Shown: one piece after another, positions 2 to 56,333 of the stretch
Position numbering within the stretch: position 1 is the first letter of the stretch
Layout of the letters: every line of letters begins with the position of its first letter
From: Fibrobacter sp.
GTDB lineage: Bacteria; Fibrobacterota; Fibrobacteria; Fibrobacterales; Fibrobacteraceae
Direction: 5' to 3'
Assembly: GCA_017642335.1 (NCBI GenBank)
Contig: JAGCPF010000046.1
Span: 1-64,000, forward strand
Length of the DNA: 64,000 bases
Program-made: the position numbers and the translations under genes
The notes under the pieces: generated by a model
What the model was told of the DNA's origin: nothing
Databases searched by the model: none
Seen by the model: the letters and a program-made list of their open reading frames with translations, nothing else

Positions 2-163
2 ATTATTCCGGAACTGAAAAATAGGTACCGGAACCGGGTCTTTTGGTGTCGAGGATACTATGTTGACACGGCTGGAAAAAACGCAGACCGCATCAAGGCA
101 TATATTCAACAACAATTAGAGGAAGACAAACTGGGCGAACAGCAAACCATGTTTGACAAGTAG
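2..163 (+). CDS. tnpA: IS200/IS605-type transposase TnpA, C-terminal fragment
   Basis: Open from the window edge to a TAG at 161-163; only the last 53 residues are present. The segment FWCRGYYVDTAGKN followed by an IKAYIQQQLEEDK-like helix is the hallmark C-terminus of IS200 Y1-type HUH transposases, in which the tyrosine of the RGYYVDT block is the nucleophile that cuts single-stranded DNA ends. The resemblance to classical enterobacterial IS200 is strong over its whole length. The HUH motif lies outside the window, so whether the element is intact cannot be judged. TnpA of this class moves single-stranded DNA and recognises sub-terminal hairpins such as those directly downstream. Confidence 0.9.
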   Translation: MIPELKNRYRNRVFWCRGYYVDTAGKNADRIKAYIQQQLEEDKLGEQQTMFDK

Positions 164-8500: not shown

Positions 8501-8748
8501 TTACATACTTAGAGCTCATTTTTTTATATAAAGTATGTAAATGCCTTGTCTTATCTGTGACTGATTTGCTTGTTTACATACCAAAGGACGTTTTTCGTGG
8601 CTTTAGTATGTAATTTTTGCAAAAAAACTTTTTTGGGGGGCGTTTTCCTGAAAAAATCAGGGCTGTTGGTACTTTTTTGATGGTTTTTGGACTTGATTTT
8701 CCCTTTTTTTACATATTAAGTGGCGGTTTTTCTTGATTTAGTATGTAA
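8501..8748. repeat. Array of three 40-bp palindromic elements
   Basis: Units at 8501-8540, 8574-8613 and 8709-8748. Each is exactly 40 bp, begins TTACATA(C/T) and ends AGTATGTAA, with a variable, often T-rich centre. The same element occurs four times at 51433-51724. The last unit ends 64 bases before the ATG of the downstream lipoprotein gene, where a promoter would be expected. Confidence 0.9.
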
Positions 8749-49521: not shown

Positions 49522-51324
49522 ATGAAGAATATGAAGACGAGAATTTATGGTATTGCACTGGCATCCCTGATGGTTTCGGCGATGGCCCTCACCGCCTGCA
49601 ACGAACAGGGGAAGTCCGGGGCTTCCAAGTCCGCTGAGCTGAACTGCCCGGAACTGCCGGTCGATTCCACCGCCACGGGCGAGTTCGACCCGATTGCCTC
49701 GAAGGACGCCCGCCCCTGCGGGACAATCACCCTCTGGGGCTCCGCGATGCCGAAGTCCTTCAACATGTGGGAAGACTACAACAGCTTCTCCGCCGAGCTC
49801 ATGGGCATGATGTTCGAGCCGCTCGTGAGTCTGCACTCCACCGAGGACCGCGAAGTCGGTATCCTCGCCGACAGCTGGAGCGTTAGCGAAGACGGCAAGA
49901 CGTTCACCTTCCACGTGGATGCGCGGGCCCGGTGGAGCGACGGCAAGCCCGTCACCGCCGAAGATGTGCAGTACTACTACGACGTCATCATGGACGAGAA
50001 GAACCTCACCCCGATTTTCAAGGTCGGGCTTAGCCGTTTCGACCGCCCCGAGGTGGTCGACAGCCTCACGGTGAAGATGACCGCGAAGGAATCGCACTGG
50101 GGAAACTTCTGGGAAGCTGCGGGCATGCTCGCGTTCCCCAAGCACGTTTGGGCAGGGAAGGACTTCAACCAGATCCGCTACGAGTTCCCGGTGGTTTCGG
50201 GCCCGTACAAGATCAAGACCTTCCGCGAGGACCGCTACGTGGAATTGCAGCGCCGAGCTGACTGGTGGGGCTTCCACAAGAACTGGAACCGCGGCAAGTA
50301 CAACTTCGAGAAGATCCGCTACCGTTTTATGAACGACCAGACGAAGGCCCTCGAAGCCTTCAAGAAGCAGGACTTCAACGCCTATGCCATCTACACCAGC
50401 AGCATCTGGATGAAGCAGACCGACTTCGATGCCGTCAAGAAGGGCTGGGCCGTAAAGCAGCGTATCTTTAACAAGGAGCCCATCGGCTTCCAGGGCATGG
50501 CCATCAACCTGCGCAAGCCGCAGTTCCAGGACGTTCGCGTGCGCCGTGCCTTGAGCATGCTTTTGAACCGCGAGGCCATGAACGAGAAGTACATGTTCGG
50601 CCAGTACTTCTTGCTGAACAGCTACTACCCCGACCTGTGGGAAGGCAACCAGAACCCGACGGCGCCGCTTTACAAGTTCAACCCGGACAGCGCCCGTGCC
50701 CTCTTTGCCGAAGCGGGCTACAAGGTGAACGGCCAGGGCGTGCTCGAAAAAGACGGCAAGGCCTTCGCCATCAACTTCATCACGAGCCAGGAAGACCTGC
50801 GCCACCTCACGCTGTTCCAGGAAGACCTGAAGAAGGTCGGCGTGGTGGCGACCATCGAGCAGATGAGCCAGAGCACCTTGCGCAAGCGCCTCGATGATGC
50901 CGACTTCGACCTCTACTGGGTGAATTGGGGTGCAGGCCGCCTCCGCGACCCGGAAGCGAGCTGGCATTCTGCAACGGCACTCCAGAAGGGTACGAATAAC
51001 CTTGCCGGCGTTCAGGATAAAGTTGTCGATAGCCTCATCAACTTGCAGAAGACGGAATTCGACCTCGCGAAGCGTAACGAAATCCTGAAAGCACTCGACA
51101 ACCGCCTCGCCGAAATCGTGCCGTACGTGCTCATGTGGCAGTGCGACCACCACCGCATTCTCTACTGGAATCGCTACGGCATGCCCGAAAAGGTGCTGGA
51201 CCGCTTCAACCGCGAAGACGCCATCCCCGTTTACTGGTGGCTCGACCCGGAAAAGTCCAAGAAACTCGACGCCGCGATGAAATCCGGCGAAAGCCTGCCG
51301 ATCCCCGAATACGATGTGAAATAG
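49522..51324 (+). CDS. Solute-binding lipoprotein of a peptide-type ABC transporter
   Basis: 600 residues. Lipobox LTAC in a standard signal; the rest is an SBP_bac_5 (OppA/YejA-like) fold. Landmarks: MMFEPLVSL, a LADSWSVSEDGKTFTFHV segment, WSDGKPVTAEDVQY, VRRALSMLLNREAMN, and a DFDLYWVNW block. It binds oligopeptides or similar solutes outside the inner membrane. No permease or ATPase is next to it. The ribosome site is weak; the only purine-rich stretch (CGAGAGACGA, 5 bases before the ATG) is itself part of the heptamer repeat family. An internal ATG at 49531 is possible. Confidence 0.92.
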   Translation: MKNMKTRIYGIALASLMVSAMALTACNEQGKSGASKSAELNCPELPVDSTATGEFDPIASKDARPCGTITLWGSAMPKSFNMWEDYNSFSAELMGMMFEPLVSLHSTEDREVGILADSWSVSEDGKTFTFHVDARARWSDGKPVTAEDVQYYYDVIMDEKNLTPIFKVGLSRFDRPEVVDSLTVKMTAKESHWGNFWEAAGMLAFPKHVWAGKDFNQIRYEFPVVSGPYKIKTFREDRYVELQRRADWWGFHKNWNRGKYNFEKIRYRFMNDQTKALEAFKKQDFNAYAIYTSSIWMKQTDFDAVKKGWAVKQRIFNKEPIGFQGMAINLRKPQFQDVRVRRALSMLLNREAMNEKYMFGQYFLLNSYYPDLWEGNQNPTAPLYKFNPDSARALFAEAGYKVNGQGVLEKDGKAFAINFITSQEDLRHLTLFQEDLKKVGVVATIEQMSQSTLRKRLDDADFDLYWVNWGAGRLRDPEASWHSATALQKGTNNLAGVQDKVVDSLINLQKTEFDLAKRNEILKALDNRLAEIVPYVLMWQCDHHRILYWNRYGMPEKVLDRFNREDAIPVYWWLDPEKSKKLDAAMKSGESLPIPEYDVK

Positions 51325-51405
51325 CTTTGAGCGATGAGCTCGGTCGCTAGCGCTCCCTCTGAGGTGTGAGGTAAATAGAGGTTAGGGGTTGGTGATTAGG
51401 AAAAA
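51325..51405 (+). repeat. Degenerate heptamer tract after the solute-binding protein gene
   Basis: GAGCGAT GAGCTCG..., GTGAGGT, GGTTAGG, GGTTGGT and GATTAGG units, partly in 7-bp phase. Confidence 0.65.
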
Positions 51406-51432
51406 AAAGTTTTTTGTCTTTTTTTCTGTGTC

Positions 51433-51724
51433 TTACATACTAAACGTCAAAATTTTGCCGAATAATATGTAAAAATGTCCGTCAACAGAAAGAAAAGGGC
51501 TTTTTTTTCATCACCTTACATACTAAAATGTTTTTTTTAGTGACTTAGTATGTAAATTTGCTGGCAAAACAATTTACTTTATACGAATTTTTGTGGATTT
51601 TACATACTAGAGGACGCTTTTTTTTGAATTTAGTATGTAAACGAGATTGTTTTTCCTTTTTACTGGATGCCGATTTAAGAGAAATTACATACTAATCGTT
51701 CAGAAAAAGAAAAATAGTATGTAA
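51433..51724. repeat. Array of four 40-41 bp palindromic elements with 83-85 bp pitch
   Basis: Units at 51433-51472, 51516-51555, 51600-51640 and 51685-51724. All begin TTACATACTA and end (T)A(G/A)TATGTAA; centres differ. Gaps between units are 43, 44 and 44 bp of unrelated sequence. The array lies in a 659-bp region without genes, between heptamer tracts. Confidence 0.93.
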
Positions 51725-51727
51725 GAC

Positions 51728-51769
51728 AGCTCATAGCTCGCCGCTCATAGCTCACCGCTCGCTCCTCAT
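51728..51769 (+). repeat. Heptamer tract (AGCTCAT type)
   Basis: AGCTCAT AGCTCGC CGCTCAT AGCTCAC CGCTCGC TCCTCAT in strict 7-bp phase, four bases after the last palindromic element. The remaining 51770-51983 shows nothing recognisable except a possible promoter stretch near 51938-51957. Confidence 0.9.
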
Positions 51770-51983
51770 CCCCCCAGATTTTAGCCTCGAGCCGCAACCC
51801 TTTTCCCCTAAAAAAGTGTTGTACAAAATTAAACATGTGACGCCTGTCATTTTGTAGTATTTTGGGCAGTTTTTGCGTTTGCGCCCTATCACAACGCCAA
51901 GAAAAAGAAACTCTCAATTGGAATATTTTCCTTTTTTGATAGTATCTTATATATAAAGAAAAAATCGAGGCAGGGTGTAAGAG

Positions 51984-54900
51984 ATGAAAATAAAATCCAT
52001 TTTTTTGTTTATATGGGGATTCCTGACTGCGGGGTCCGTATTTGCCCAAACTCCTGAAGGCTATCTGCAACTTTGTATTGACGGAAACGAGGATGCGTAT
52101 GTTTCGCAGTATATTGGTGTAACTCCACCTAGCGCTCCCTTAGGCTACACTTGTACTACCGCCCCTTTGAAAACGATTTCCCGTACGGCAGTTGTTTTGG
52201 ATTCTATCCTGACTGCTGACTGGAATCCAAGCACGAATGCATATTCTGTGGGATTCAATCCGATGTTGGGTGGCGGATTTGTGGTGTATCAACGTAAGCA
52301 CGCACTTACCTTTTCGACCGATTTCCAGTTTGGGCAATATGTTGAGGTGTCAAAAGGTGTGTTCGAATGCCAAGTCAACCATACTCCGCTCAAGTTTAAG
52401 CTAGACGACTGGGAAATTAACGGAGGCAATCATACAATCTCCAATGTGTGCCTCGAAAAAGAAATTTCTGCTGGCGATGATTCACAGGCATCCCCAATCG
52501 GCTTTTTTGAAACTCTGGAATCGGTCAATGTCCATAACTTAAAGCTCAAGAACATCTCGTTCTCCGTGACTGCTGAAGGTGGAGCTTCGTTGGACGCTTC
52601 AAAATTCGGTCCCGTGGGTGCTCTTGCGGGTGTCTTGAAATTGGCTTTGCTCTATGAGGATACGCTAACTGATATCAATATTTCTGCCCCGATGGCTGGC
52701 GGGTTTGTCGGCTATGCGGAAAATAGTACCCTCTTGCGGATTTACAGCGACGATGATCTGAACGTCTTTAACGATGTGGACCTGAACGGTGCGGAATATT
52801 ATGCAGGCATCCATACTTCCGATTGGGGGAGTGATTATCGGGCTTTTATTGGAGGCTTGGTCGGCTATGCGGTGAACCTGAATCTGAAACAGATCAATGT
52901 GATGCCCAAGGTGCAGAACAGATCCGCCGATACGTCGACCGTCATCGGTGGACTTGTTGGCATGTATGCGCTTTCGCAGAAGAAGAATAACAGGCCTGAA
53001 CAGAACGTCATGGAAATCGACTCTTTAACAATGTTGGTTAAGACCGAAAATGCGAACACGTACACCAAGGTTGAAGGCGGTAAGACGATGGGAGATCTTG
53101 TGGGCGAGGCGGCAATCTACAAGAATCTGGCAGCCGAATCCATGAACCTTTCCATAAATCATGTGAATCTTTATGGTTCTATTTCTAATCCGCGAGGAAA
53201 TGACGTGCATGCCGGTGGCATGATTGGCCGTAGCCTGGTTGACCGTGGTGCCTCCGTGAAGATTCTCAATAGCGAAGTCACACTCAAAATGAATGAATCT
53301 CTCTCGAATGCGGGCTACTATCAATATTCCGTAGGCGGCCTGGTTGGCGAAGGGGCTTGCGTATCCACCGAGAATACGGTGACGGCCGAATCGTTTATTT
53401 CCATTACCAATACGAAAACGTACGGTTCTCTCTCGCTCTCCAAGAAGGATGGCGTCGAGAACGTTAGCGCCGACGTGTTCATGGGTGGCCTGGCTGGGCG
53501 TGCCTGCCTTGCCCGAAATGCGGAGGCTCTGTCGGGGAATTCTTCGGCGATGGAATTAAGTGTCACGGTGAACGGCTTGCGCGGACATTCTGTCGGAGGC
53601 AGCGAGACCTCGGCAATCGATACCGTGATGGTGGGCGGCTTTGTCGGCAAGGCCGTGACCCGCCCCAATACGAGTGGAACCTATACGGCAGGAGATTCCG
53701 TCCTGACGGTTCGCAATGCGATGTTTACCGGAAGAATTTCGGTCAAGGATAGTCTGAACCTTGTCCGCGCGGGCGGCTTCATCGGTTCGTTTGCCGACAA
53801 TGCCGGTGTGCTGTATGTCGCCTTTGAAAATGCCCGACTGAACAACGTGGCTTTGATGACCCTCAATCCCGGGGTGACGGCTACATTCCCGGTGCAGGGC
53901 TCCGCTGCCATTGGAGGACTCTGCGGTTATTGCATCATGCCGAACAGCGTCAACCGTGTCATGGTTAGGGGAGGTATCAATGTGCAAGGTGATTTCTCCC
54001 AGGCGGATTCCCTGTTCGTGGGTGGTGCGTTTGGCGGCTTGCTCAGCAGCAAGGACTTTAGCATGCAGAACCTGTACTACATTGGCACGATGACCGTTCC
54101 CGGCAGCGGTTCTTCGGACAAAATCTACGAAGGCTACCTGGCAGGAAAGCTTACGCTGAACGGCACGAAGGTCTTTAGAAAGATTGTTTCCACTTATCAC
54201 AATGGCAATGACAAGCTGGACGCTTTCGGGCTGTTCGAGGGCGGGAACGCTCATTTCTTGCCGTCTGCGCAGGGCGATGACTGGAGCCTGATCGAGAACG
54301 AGTGCAGCGGTCTGTCCAAGCTGAACGGCAACGTGACGTGCTGGGATATTCGTTATAACGTACGTAACGGCGATACGGAGAGCATAAACGAGAATTTCAA
54401 CGGAACGAAGACCGATTCCTCCATGAAAACTCCCGAATTCGCCGATTTCCTGAACGACCCGTTCTCTGCGGACGGCAATGTGTACTGGGGACATGAGGTC
54501 GGCTCAAACGGCGACTTCCCGTATCTCTTGGAAAACCCGATTATCCTCAATCTCCCGTCGTCTTCGTCCGTGGCTGTGTCCAGTTCTTCTTCGGCCCCGG
54601 TAAGTTCCAGCTCGTTCTGGTTCCCGACTTTCAGTTCGAGTTCGTTCCAGTTCCCGACATTCAGTTCGTGCTCGTTCCAATTCCCGACCTTCAGTTCCAG
54701 CTCTATCACATGGCCATGGCCGTTTAGTTCTAGCTCGATTAAACTGCCGCCTGCAAGTTCGAGTTCCGTGTTTATCCCGTCGAGTTCTTCTGAGTTGCCG
54801 CAGCCGGAGTCTTCGTCTGTCGAGGAACCCGCGCCTAACAATGCTCTGAAGGTTGTCGTCGTCGAAGCTCCCAAGATTCTGTCGCACCGTCTGGACTGGT

Positions 54901-56333
54901 CCGGTTCTTTGGCCCGCCTTGTGTTCAGTGCCAGCGCAGATACCCTGGGCAGTAAGGTCGTCGCGTCGGTTCGCGTACGTTCCGGTGATGTCGTCGTACT
55001 CGATACGCTGCTCGTTGATTCCGTTCCGGGAATTCTGGACCAGGCTTCGTTGAACTTTGCCGTGACTCCCGGCGATTCGCTTGTCTACGAGATTTCTTTG
55101 CAAGGCGATACTGTCTCGGCATTGGCTAATGGGGGCTCACGGAATGAAACGGAGGTCCAGAGGTTCCGCTGGCAGATGGTTTCGCTCGCCGATGTCAATC
55201 TTCGCAAGCAGAATTTGGACGAATACCATGTGCTCTACCGCTGGGACGAATCCCTGGAGATGGGCGACTACATGCAGTACCGTGGCTATTCTAGCGATGA
55301 AGATGTTTCAGGGACAAACGGCTACTGGTATGGCTCTTATGACGGAGCCGCCTTGAAGCGCGATGTCGGCAAGTTTGTCGATAACGCGGAAATCGTCTGG
55401 GAAGTCGACAGCATCCACAGCGGCTGGAACATGGTGGCCAACCCCTACGGCTGGGTGGTCGACCTGTCCGCTATCGCGGAATCCGATGTCGAGTTGTGGA
55501 GCTGGGACGACGAGACCGGCGGATATGGCATCCCGACGGAATTGAAACCTTACGAGGCTGTATGGCTGAAGACCTCCGGCCCGCAGACGCTCCAGTTCTC
55601 CGCGGCCCCGAAGTTCGGCGAGAATGGTGCGAAGTCGCTTGCCAAGCGTGGAGCGCTCAAGAAGTCGTCTGACGGCTGGACGATCCGCGCCACTCTGTTC
55701 GACGATAACGGCAAGGAGGATTCCTGGAACATGTTCGGCACGAATAGCGTGGTGTCCAAGAGCGACAAGCCGCCTTCCGGTATGGGGGACCATGTGTCGC
55801 TTGCAATTGTCGAGGATGGTCGCGCTCTTGCCAGGTCGTTCAAGCCCGCAGCAAAAGAAATGGAATGGACTCTCCAGTTGAGTGCGTCGAGTGAGAGAAC
55901 TGCGTATCTTAAATTGGAGGGTCTTGCTGAAGCTAAGGCAACGGGCAACAAGGTGTTCGTGACGGTTGACGGCAAGACTGTCGAGGCGAAGGAAGGCAAG
56001 GCGATTCCTGTGAAGGTGGGAACCTTCAAGAAGACGGCGACCGTCTATGTGGCGCCGCAGGCCAAGCCGGAACTTGAATACGCCTTCAAGGATGTCCGTG
56101 TCGTCCAGAGCGGCAGCATGTTCGACGTCCAGTTCGTGGCGACGAACGGGCTTGCTGGCCGTAGCGTGAAGGTCGACCTGCTGGATATTTCCGGAAAGGT
56201 GCTGTCCTCGCTTTCGAAGACTTCGTCGGCAGGCGTGAATAACGCGAGCTTCGCTGCCCCCAAAGGTGGCCTCTATATCGTCAGAATCCGTTCCGGAAGC
56301 CTGTCTGCTACCAGAAAAGTCGTCTTGAGGTGA
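51984..56333 (+). CDS. Large secreted GLUG-repeat protein with Ser-rich linker and T9SS-like tail
   Basis: 1449 residues. Signal peptide (IFLFIWGFLTAGSVFA). Residues about 240-710 carry ten or so GG(L/F)(V/I)G units (IGGLVGYA, VGGLVGEG, AGGFIGSF, IGGLCGYC), the pattern of GLUG-type beta-helix repeats. A linker of serine blocks alternating with Phe-Pro-Thr or Trp-Pro (SSSSFQFPTF type) spans about 855-950. Residues about 1064-1370 form a module also found in the next gene (MVSLADV, VDSIHSGWNMVANPYG, DSWNMFG). The last 80 residues are a sorting domain ending TRKVVLR. Likely displayed on the cell surface; ligand unknown. Confidence 0.86.
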   Translation: MKIKSIFLFIWGFLTAGSVFAQTPEGYLQLCIDGNEDAYVSQYIGVTPPSAPLGYTCTTAPLKTISRTAVVLDSILTADWNPSTNAYSVGFNPMLGGGFVVYQRKHALTFSTDFQFGQYVEVSKGVFECQVNHTPLKFKLDDWEINGGNHTISNVCLEKEISAGDDSQASPIGFFETLESVNVHNLKLKNISFSVTAEGGASLDASKFGPVGALAGVLKLALLYEDTLTDINISAPMAGGFVGYAENSTLLRIYSDDDLNVFNDVDLNGAEYYAGIHTSDWGSDYRAFIGGLVGYAVNLNLKQINVMPKVQNRSADTSTVIGGLVGMYALSQKKNNRPEQNVMEIDSLTMLVKTENANTYTKVEGGKTMGDLVGEAAIYKNLAAESMNLSINHVNLYGSISNPRGNDVHAGGMIGRSLVDRGASVKILNSEVTLKMNESLSNAGYYQYSVGGLVGEGACVSTENTVTAESFISITNTKTYGSLSLSKKDGVENVSADVFMGGLAGRACLARNAEALSGNSSAMELSVTVNGLRGHSVGGSETSAIDTVMVGGFVGKAVTRPNTSGTYTAGDSVLTVRNAMFTGRISVKDSLNLVRAGGFIGSFADNAGVLYVAFENARLNNVALMTLNPGVTATFPVQGSAAIGGLCGYCIMPNSVNRVMVRGGINVQGDFSQADSLFVGGAFGGLLSSKDFSMQNLYYIGTMTVPGSGSSDKIYEGYLAGKLTLNGTKVFRKIVSTYHNGNDKLDAFGLFEGGNAHFLPSAQGDDWSLIENECSGLSKLNGNVTCWDIRYNVRNGDTESINENFNGTKTDSSMKTPEFADFLNDPFSADGNVYWGHEVGSNGDFPYLLENPIILNLPSSSSVAVSSSSSAPVSSSSFWFPTFSSSSFQFPTFSSCSFQFPTFSSSSITWPWPFSSSSIKLPPASSSSVFIPSSSSELPQPESSSVEEPAPNNALKVVVVEAPKILSHRLDWSGSLARLVFSASADTLGSKVVASVRVRSGDVVVLDTLLVDSVPGILDQASLNFAVTPGDSLVYEISLQGDTVSALANGGSRNETEVQRFRWQMVSLADVNLRKQNLDEYHVLYRWDESLEMGDYMQYRGYSSDEDVSGTNGYWYGSYDGAALKRDVGKFVDNAEIVWEVDSIHSGWNMVANPYGWVVDLSAIAESDVELWSWDDETGGYGIPTELKPYEAVWLKTSGPQTLQFSAAPKFGENGAKSLAKRGALKKSSDGWTIRATLFDDNGKEDSWNMFGTNSVVSKSDKPPSGMGDHVSLAIVEDGRALARSFKPAAKEMEWTLQLSASSERTAYLKLEGLAEAKATGNKVFVTVDGKTVEAKEGKAIPVKVGTFKKTATVYVAPQAKPELEYAFKDVRVVQSGSMFDVQFVATNGLAGRSVKVDLLDISGKVLSSLSKTSSAGVNNASFAAPKGGLYIVRIRSGSLSATRKVVLR

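Follow-up and report, generated by a model that had tools for sequence, protein, structure and literature searches.

Helically phased arrays of inverted half-sites lie beside genes of a nuclease-like protein family in Fibrobacter and probably serve as its DNA platforms

Within 64,000 nucleotides of Fibrobacter sp. (NCBI GenBank assembly GCA_017642335.1, contig JAGCPF010000046.1, positions 1 to 64,000 of the forward strand; hereafter the window), four regularly spaced palindromes form a block that is called here array H. Arrays of this type are composed of pairs of inverted half-sites, and clustering of their neighbours has revealed that a protein of ~280 amino acids (aa) with a nuclease-like core recurs beside arrays of several half-site words. 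Very probably, the nuclease-like protein assembles in phase on these arrays as its cognate platforms of double-stranded DNA, array H being a copy in trans, i.e., without the gene beside it. The linkage of array and gene, the helical phase, the covariation of word and protein, their joint exchange, their joint presence and the constraint on the half-sites are established below by comparison of genome sequences. The features of array H are as follows.

Array H, 51401..51729, no strand assigned: block of ~330 bp with four palindromes, limits approximate
Array H element 1, 51433..51472, no strand assigned: 40 bp, right arm TAATATGTAA with 1 mismatch
Array H element 2, 51516..51555, no strand assigned: 40 bp
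Array H element 3, 51600..51640, no strand assigned: 41 bp
Array H element 4, 51685..51724, no strand assigned: 40 bp

An earlier note on this DNA had described four elements of 40-41 bp with conserved 10-bp ends and variable centres, and this description is confirmed: all eight arms read TTACATACTA/TAGTATGTAA apart from a single mismatch in the right arm of element 1, and the start-to-start pitches are 83, 84 and 85 bp. With up to 1 mismatch, TTACATACTA is matched 14 times in the window versus 0.68 expected, a count reached in 0/100 shuffles, and the exact two-arm pattern is matched 3 times versus 0.00 expected. The whole genome (3.77 Mb, 73 contigs) holds 28 elements (up to 3 mismatches, 20-bp gap) in about ten places, and the reversed-pattern control gave 0. 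According to the earlier note, a lack of further copies, or a frequency expected by chance in such AT-rich DNA, would have refuted its reading; these counts speak against both, and chance repeats were rejected on the half-site, two-arm and genome figures alike. Clustered regularly interspaced short palindromic repeats (CRISPR) were also dismissed, judging by the repeat structure and with no search for Cas genes: only the ends of ~10-12 bp are shared, the centres differ and the spacers align between homologous arrays.

The linked gene is matched in 49 of the 80 genomes, with up to 8 matches per genome that correspond to up to 7 gene loci after the joining of split genes (G032, G034). Domain-only matches (G001:C3, G067:C20) and a 37-aa piece (G018:C83) were left out; G071:C4:11151 appeared in L103 alone. 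Repeated inverted pairs were sought without a preset motif at 102 gene loci, mostly of 3.7 kb and many of them orthologous (the genus supplied 90 and a Lachnospiraceae genome 12). This search detected at least two elements at 97 loci and at least three at 81, the best array lying within 350 bp of the gene at 94/97. Block-shuffled controls yielded no elements in 406/408 cases, two elements in 2/408 and never more. At 33 held-out gene loci, at least two elements were found at 31 and at least three at 21, compared with 1/132 shuffles. In the Lachnospiraceae genome (G080), which represents another phylum, arrays accompany 10/12 gene loci, 6 of them with at least three elements; some of its arrays (L156, L158, L160, L163, L164) are longer and satellite-like, e.g., with eight elements mostly at a 63-bp pitch. 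Natural DNA gave clean controls: upstream of purA, among the 30 loci listed of 77 genomes, an array was found at 4/4 loci with the gene and at 0/26 without it in the stretch examined, three of these 26 having less than 1.5 kb of upstream sequence; around orthologues of the gene left of array H, among the 30 loci listed of 73 genomes, an array was found at 0/29 outside the genome of the window, whether downstream or in the whole locus. Across the genus, arrays of two searched words occur in 33/80 genomes, and the gene is present in 28 of these 33 versus 21 of the 47 genomes lacking such arrays (Fisher p 4e-4, in a comparison that does not match word to gene). TIGR02147-like neighbours were dropped as the cognate protein because the ~280-aa family is the one that recurs beside arrays of several words. 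Arrays do lie upstream of putatively TIGR02147-like helix-turn-helix (HTH) genes at five loci (L023, L045, L047, L067, L075).

The spacing of the elements follows the turn of the DNA double helix. For the analysis of phase, 78 distinct arrays, whose elements were found through their arms (up to 4 mismatches in 20), were grouped into 51 families by the similarity of spacers and centres with half-sites masked, and one array was taken per family. All 113 of 113 distances between 45 and 220 bp deviate by no more than 2 bp from a whole multiple of 10.5 bp (R = 0.91, compared with up to 0.46 in jittered controls), and they comprise length classes of 6, 7, 8, 9, 13, 14, 15 and 16 turns, pitches outside array H including 63, 74, 95, 136, 147, 158 and 168 bp. 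Cruder clustering into 20 families with 43 distances gives a best period of 10.50 and the same R of 0.91 (controls up to 0.55). Arrays adjoining the gene, grouped into 29 half-site clusters, contribute 73 distances with R = 0.80 and residuals of -2.5 to +3.0, and in arrays of at least three elements at held-out gene loci 42 of 45 distances lie within 2 bp of a multiple (R = 0.93). The p-values of such comparisons are only formal because related arrays and orthologous loci are not independent. That all eight length classes fall on whole turns points to double-stranded DNA recognized from one side, and with this spacing successive pairs lie on one face of the double helix. The pitch in array H, which the earlier note had considered close to eight helical turns, fits this genus-wide rule. 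Arrays I (C49) and J (C60) of the same genome, which do not enter the phasing counts, have starts that give 146, 127 and 53 bp.

The same data bear on the suggestion, also made in the earlier note, that the transcribed hairpin is what matters. Structured RNA or terminators would agree with inverted repeats that have T-rich stretches nearby; however, central complementarity stops after ~12 bp and leaves ~14-16 bp of the centre non-complementary, and in 61 distinct 20-bp centres the positions past the first three pair at 0.225 versus 0.262 +/- 0.022 for shuffled partners. Together with the use of the same arms throughout the elements of an array and the 10.5-bp phasing, this makes RNA hairpins the least credible of the explanations considered, to which we assign almost no weight. 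The central 8 bp contain AAA or TTT in 0.52 of the 61 elements with n = 20 and in 0.83 of 18 elements with n = 21. This A or T tract goes with the words TTACATACTA and TTACGTACTA, many centres in the TTACGGACTA arrays of G003 (L104, L107, L108, L110, L111) have runs of G or C, and the composition of the centre thus seems to depend on the word.

Each array uses one word of ~7-8 bp, in most followed by AAA towards the centre, and the words differ between species while the architecture stays the same; in the TTACATACTA type the half-sites are ~30 bp apart. One genome uses TTACGGACTA (with TTACAGACTA) and others TTACGTACTA, TTACCGACTA or TTACTAACTA, and arrays adjoining the gene fall into 29 half-site clusters. 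Across the 80 genomes of the genus, the strict pattern of array H is matched in 17 and in 27 when up to 3 mismatches are allowed, and TTACNNACTA is matched in 25/80. The genome-wide search for trans arrays covered two word patterns, and the second word, GGGCRTATAA, likewise has trans arrays, in 16/80 genomes and with up to 25 elements in one. A scan for the TTACATACTA type in one genome per species (84,980 species) returned 43 stretches, of which 38 bear the title Fibrobacter or Fibrobacterales; the five others and one viral stretch were at first set aside as chance and left out of the phasing counts. Of these five, L065 proved to be a true array, of four elements and from a genome that holds 12 linked gene loci, L042, L044 and L058 are single elements, and L053 has two elements 74 bp apart in a genome in which the linked gene was not found. 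A viral origin was rejected, one single element having been found in viral contigs and no full-length relative of the protein; nine relatives align only within residues 152-275. One human gut record labelled as bacteriophage (L153, MT839528) encodes a relative over 80% of the query and has no detected array, and it may be a bacterial contig.

The linked protein has a conserved C-terminal core and a variable N-terminal half. Of the 97 full-length proteins, 71 remain below a 90% identity cut, and in their alignment RSKSE at 171-175, Y191, E192, F207, E221, H222, G224 and Y231 are invariant, with P205 and D206 conserved at 90% or more. The conserved acids and the PD motif, as well as a match of the C-terminal nuclease-like domain to the C-terminus of PDC-S68 in PADLOC (E 1e-10 to 3e-25 for three proteins), suggest that the core belongs with the PD-(D/E)XK nuclease superfamily, an assignment based on these features and not on fold, with a histidine (E221-H222) replacing the canonical lysine after the last acid. 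PDC-S68 proteins are candidate phage-defence proteins whose models span 1202-1273 positions, whereas the present family has ~280 aa, a different N-terminus and a linked array. Searches of Pfam, NCBIfam and PHROGs gave nothing usable for the family; none of the 71 members matches Y1_Tnp or another transposase in Pfam, where only 5 weak families appeared with one member each, and a profile search of PDB gave three matches at E 0.16 or worse. The N-terminus may consist of a sheet of three strands and a helix, as in AP2/integrase-arm domains, although the searches gave this no support.

The N-terminal residues change together with the half-site word. Among pairs of the purA clade with 55-90% identity (101 same-word and 320 different-word pairs), same-word pairs exceed different-word pairs in identity by 0.10-0.17 in residues 1-60, by 0.05 in 61-80 and by 0.04 at most beyond; in these close relatives the word thus changes along with residues 1-60, most strongly with 41-60. 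Residues 53/54 are NH where the word is TTACATACTA or TTACGGACTA, CR with (G)TACCTATA(A), HK (one RK) with GGGCRTATAA, KK with ATGCATATA and CH or SH with TTACGTACTA. NH was present in 15/15 proteins with TTAC(AT/GG)ACTA versus 0/59 others; this test used 74 rows after 22 of 96 aligned proteins without an assigned word were left out, and no further NH occurs among the 96. One of the 15, from Lachnospiraceae, shares ~30% identity with its Fibrobacter counterparts; the array beside it has just two elements, a number also given by one of its four shuffles, and its genome holds in addition a four-element TTACATAC array. At held-out loci, many of which are probable orthologues, a known residue pair went with the known word in 17/21 cases by our own tally, with pairwise alignments at 25-38% identity: HR-GGCGGTG 5/6, SH-TTTACG 7/9, RE-TGTCACTAA 2/2, RK-GGTTACT 1/1, NK-TACCTATAA 1/2 and SN-TTACGTAC 1/1. 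A tree of residues 81 onward requires 28 word changes, compared with a shuffled mean of 55.6. The claim of the earlier note that a protein reads both ends of the elements is thereby supported, in that a candidate family has been found whose N-terminal residues go with the half-site that it would bind.

The most telling indication that the N-terminus goes with the array is, in our view, cassette exchange. At the same purA locus, L137 (G006) and L143 (G007) agree at 98% over 122 bp of upstream flank and at 94.5% over the 1570 bp that begin near codon 51, and between these stretches the array and the first 50 codons cannot be aligned. Similarly, L130 (G018) and L127 (G022) are identical at 116/118 C-terminal residues and at 4/62 N-terminal ones, and their words differ. 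Array and N-terminus can thus be exchanged as one cassette, and at one locus the flanks and the nuclease part have stayed nearly identical.

Gene and array are also present or absent together. G015 and G073 lack both between neighbours where G055 and G007 have both, the flanks being 94-97% identical, and the block of gene plus array at the purA locus measures ~1.53 kb, with a junction overlap of 3 bp versus G055 and G007 and of 10 bp versus G006. Such a clean block is what would be expected of a mobile system in which the protein is a mobility enzyme, the arrays its recognized ends and solo arrays non-autonomous copies, in the manner of repetitive extragenic palindromes (REP) or BIME elements and their REP-associated tyrosine transposases (RAYT). 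Several further observations agree with mobility: arrays lie on both sides of the gene at 12/97 loci, centres are shared in G003, arrays occur in five genomes without a detected gene, and arrays B, C and E elsewhere in the genome of the window are, with H, dispersed copies of the same ~330-bp block, E lacking one 84-bp unit. Moreover, three syntenic relatives have kept the gene pair around array H and have 93-147 bp of other repeat DNA in its place. On the other hand, the ~1.53-kb block could have arisen by insertion or by deletion; the array is 5' only at 74/97 loci; no terminal inverted repeats were noticed by eye at the block, where no search was aimed at them; most arrays of a genome share half-sites only and not spacers, with half-sites staying conserved; and the protein matches no known transposase family. 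A mobile system of this type is a serious possibility that we nevertheless hold to be doubtful.

The half-sites are better conserved than the spacers. Half-sites are 97.6% identical, centres 81.3% and spacers 80.1% across 34 pairs drawn from 16 families of homologous arrays, whose elements were found through their arms (up to 4 mismatches in 20, a procedure that inflates arm conservation). Arms exceed spacers in 16/16 families, of which 11 are solo, with the linked gene absent from their loci; for arrays B, C, E and H the corresponding values are 97.1% and 82.1%. With half-sites conserved above spacers, the arrays seem to be kept and not to be decaying.

The genomic context of the arrays allows another explanation to be weighed, namely that a conventional transcription factor uses them as operators of its regulon, those of the window regulating the adjoining genes. 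This would account for their intergenic location, given that 0/78 arrays overlap a called gene by more than 45 bp (using a home-made codon-usage gene caller), and for their position mostly 5' of the linked gene (78/97). However, among the 49 array families flanked by a called gene on either side, 18 arrangements are divergent, 20 tandem and 11 convergent, and because of this mixed placement the arrays are not simply promoter operators of their neighbours. Arrays are, in addition, only 3' of the linked gene at 11/97 loci, and array H is missing from the three relatives that keep the same gene pair. We consider conventional operators rather improbable. In arrays with 136- and 63-bp pitches (L026, L049, L052, L060, L062, L073, L076), the outermost arm is often ATACATACT with TACTTTGT before it, and AAAGTAA is present in several spacers of 23-24 bp; this might be an FCB-type (Fibrobacteres-Chlorobi-Bacteroidetes) promoter or else a second binding site.

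As a mechanism, we propose that the protein would bind the arrays as double-stranded DNA through a beta-hairpin, with one subunit per half-site and a dimer per palindrome, and that the dimers would stack in phase into one assembly. The array adjoining the gene would hold and control the nuclease, by autoregulation or restraint, and trans arrays would be further docking sites that titrate or anchor it. As to what the assembly is for, we favour control or docking of the enzyme, although with limited confidence; mobility or copying of the arrays, as in REP/RAYT systems, is nearly as likely, and chromosome organization or some other purpose follows with lower probability. If the arrays were chromosome-organizing sites proper, serving the nucleoid, segregation or as a wrapping platform, with a nuclease core that is incidental or structural, then phased half-sites, A/T tracts in many centres and scattered intergenic sites whatever the gene orientation would all be natural. 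Yet the gene was not detected in 31/80 genomes (many of them incomplete), one genome can hold several paralogues with different words (L246, L247, L248 and L250 of G037), and the nuclease core is invariant, so that this explanation appears improbable. A more speculative reading, which we put forward tentatively, is a self-address system: the N-terminal reader would name the word, the phased arrays would be chromosomal marks that hold, license or restrain the nuclease, and specificity would be switched in one step by exchange of the cassette of array plus reader. If this were true, several nucleases, blind to one another and each with separate marks, could coexist in one genome; the numbers of gene loci are 7 in each of two Fibrobacter genomes and 12 in the one Lachnospiraceae genome.

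Several points weigh against the view that the arrays are cognate platforms of the nuclease-like protein. Binding, a dimer per palindrome, phased assembly and role are deduced from sequence comparison, and the AlphaFold2 model from 5 sequences, in which residues 53/54 sit in a hairpin, is poor (mean predicted local distance difference test score, pLDDT, of 43). Besides the relatedness of arrays and loci and the bias of arm-based detection mentioned above, an independent-pairs test for NH has 4 well-supported pairs, which all agree (p 0.125), and because there are only 4 it is not significant on its own. Residues 53/54 do not form a one-to-one code, since RG accompanies five or more words, KK is also found with CATACTAA, and L253 combines SN with TTACGTACA. 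No array was detected at 5/102 and 2/33 gene loci (7/135 in all), and only two elements at 16 and 10 further loci, respectively, with doubtful two-element arrays at L154, L234, L343 and L345, the spacing in L343 and L345 being above 400 bp. The position of arrays around the 97 genes (74 5' only, 11 3' only, 12 on both sides) is awkward for plain autorepression where arrays are 3' only. Lastly, five of the 33 array-bearing genomes have no detected gene, and G022, G054 and G064 have TTACATACTA arrays though their examined genes have other words. In G022 and G054, the sole detected gene reads GTACCTATA, and their TTACATACTA elements are possibly legacy arrays left after a cassette swap.

The nearest known system is REP/RAYT. 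According to its published description (PMC2817692), the gene adjoins its cognate palindromes, the same palindromes are dispersed between genes and are often clustered, and their sequence and abundance track the gene. The arrays described here are similar in that the gene lies beside cognate palindromes and dispersed copies correlate with the gene (the 28/33 versus 21/47 genomes given above). The enzyme class, the flanking rule and the structure of the palindromes do not fit, however: REP/RAYT systems have a Y1 (HUH) transposase in place of a putative PD-(D/E)XK-like core with 0/71 matches to Y1_Tnp; their gene is always flanked on both sides in inverted orientation, whereas here mostly one side is occupied; and their complementary palindrome is interrupted by 2-4 bases and not by a long non-complementary centre. 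Further differences are the number of about ten arrays per genome, as counted in the genome of the window, and the fixed helical phase.

Two other comparisons can be drawn. In type I restriction systems, HsdS provides a conserved enzyme with an exchangeable target recognition domain that changes the word. An exchangeable DNA-reading domain on a conserved enzyme is found here too, with the differences that its own array is swapped with the N-terminus as one cassette and that the words stand in long phased arrays. Lac-type loops and the ends of Mu and Tn7 present several sites on one helix face for cooperative assembly; the present system differs in that a nuclease-like gene has an array of its own next to it, in its dozens of words and in its dispersed solo copies. 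In the open-licence literature searched, no description of such elements was found. A nuclease-like family from rumen and gut bacteria that lacks annotation thus appears to carry its own putative binding array. This would account for a class of intergenic palindromes in Fibrobacter and in one Lachnospiraceae genome at least, and a new mobile or self-recognition system may come to light. The helical-phase rule, the partly readable link between residues and word and the natural cassette swaps make a DNA-recognition code and a multi-site assembly accessible to testing, and the word of an unseen protein could be predicted and checked.

The remaining features of the window include a second array, G, which accounts for the other six half-site matches, lies outside the coordinates of the earlier note at 8501-8748 and is listed here together with the genes around array H.

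Array G element 1, 8501..8540, no strand assigned: 2 mismatches
Array G element 2, 8574..8613, no strand assigned: 1 mismatch; pitch 73, ~7 turns
Array G element 3, 8709..8748, no strand assigned: 1 mismatch; pitch 135, ~13 turns
Gene left of array H, 49522..51324, + strand: 600 aa, solute-binding-protein-like by eye
Gene right of array H, 51984..56333, + strand: 1449 aa, with poly-Ser stretches

The genome has one copy of the linked gene, at C26:192250-193083, and because this copy adjoins array D, both arrays of the window, H and G, are gene-less (trans) arrays. At the edge of the contig, window positions 8-115 (C42:8-115) contain the end of a Y1_Tnp (RAYT/IS200-like) gene fragment; it is one of two Y1_Tnp matches in this genome, the other being at C26:59416, and neither is at its listed arrays. 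Finally, dispersed intergenic repeats (GGTTAGGGG..., CTCATAGCTC...) flank array H at window positions 51324-51432 and 51725-51780.
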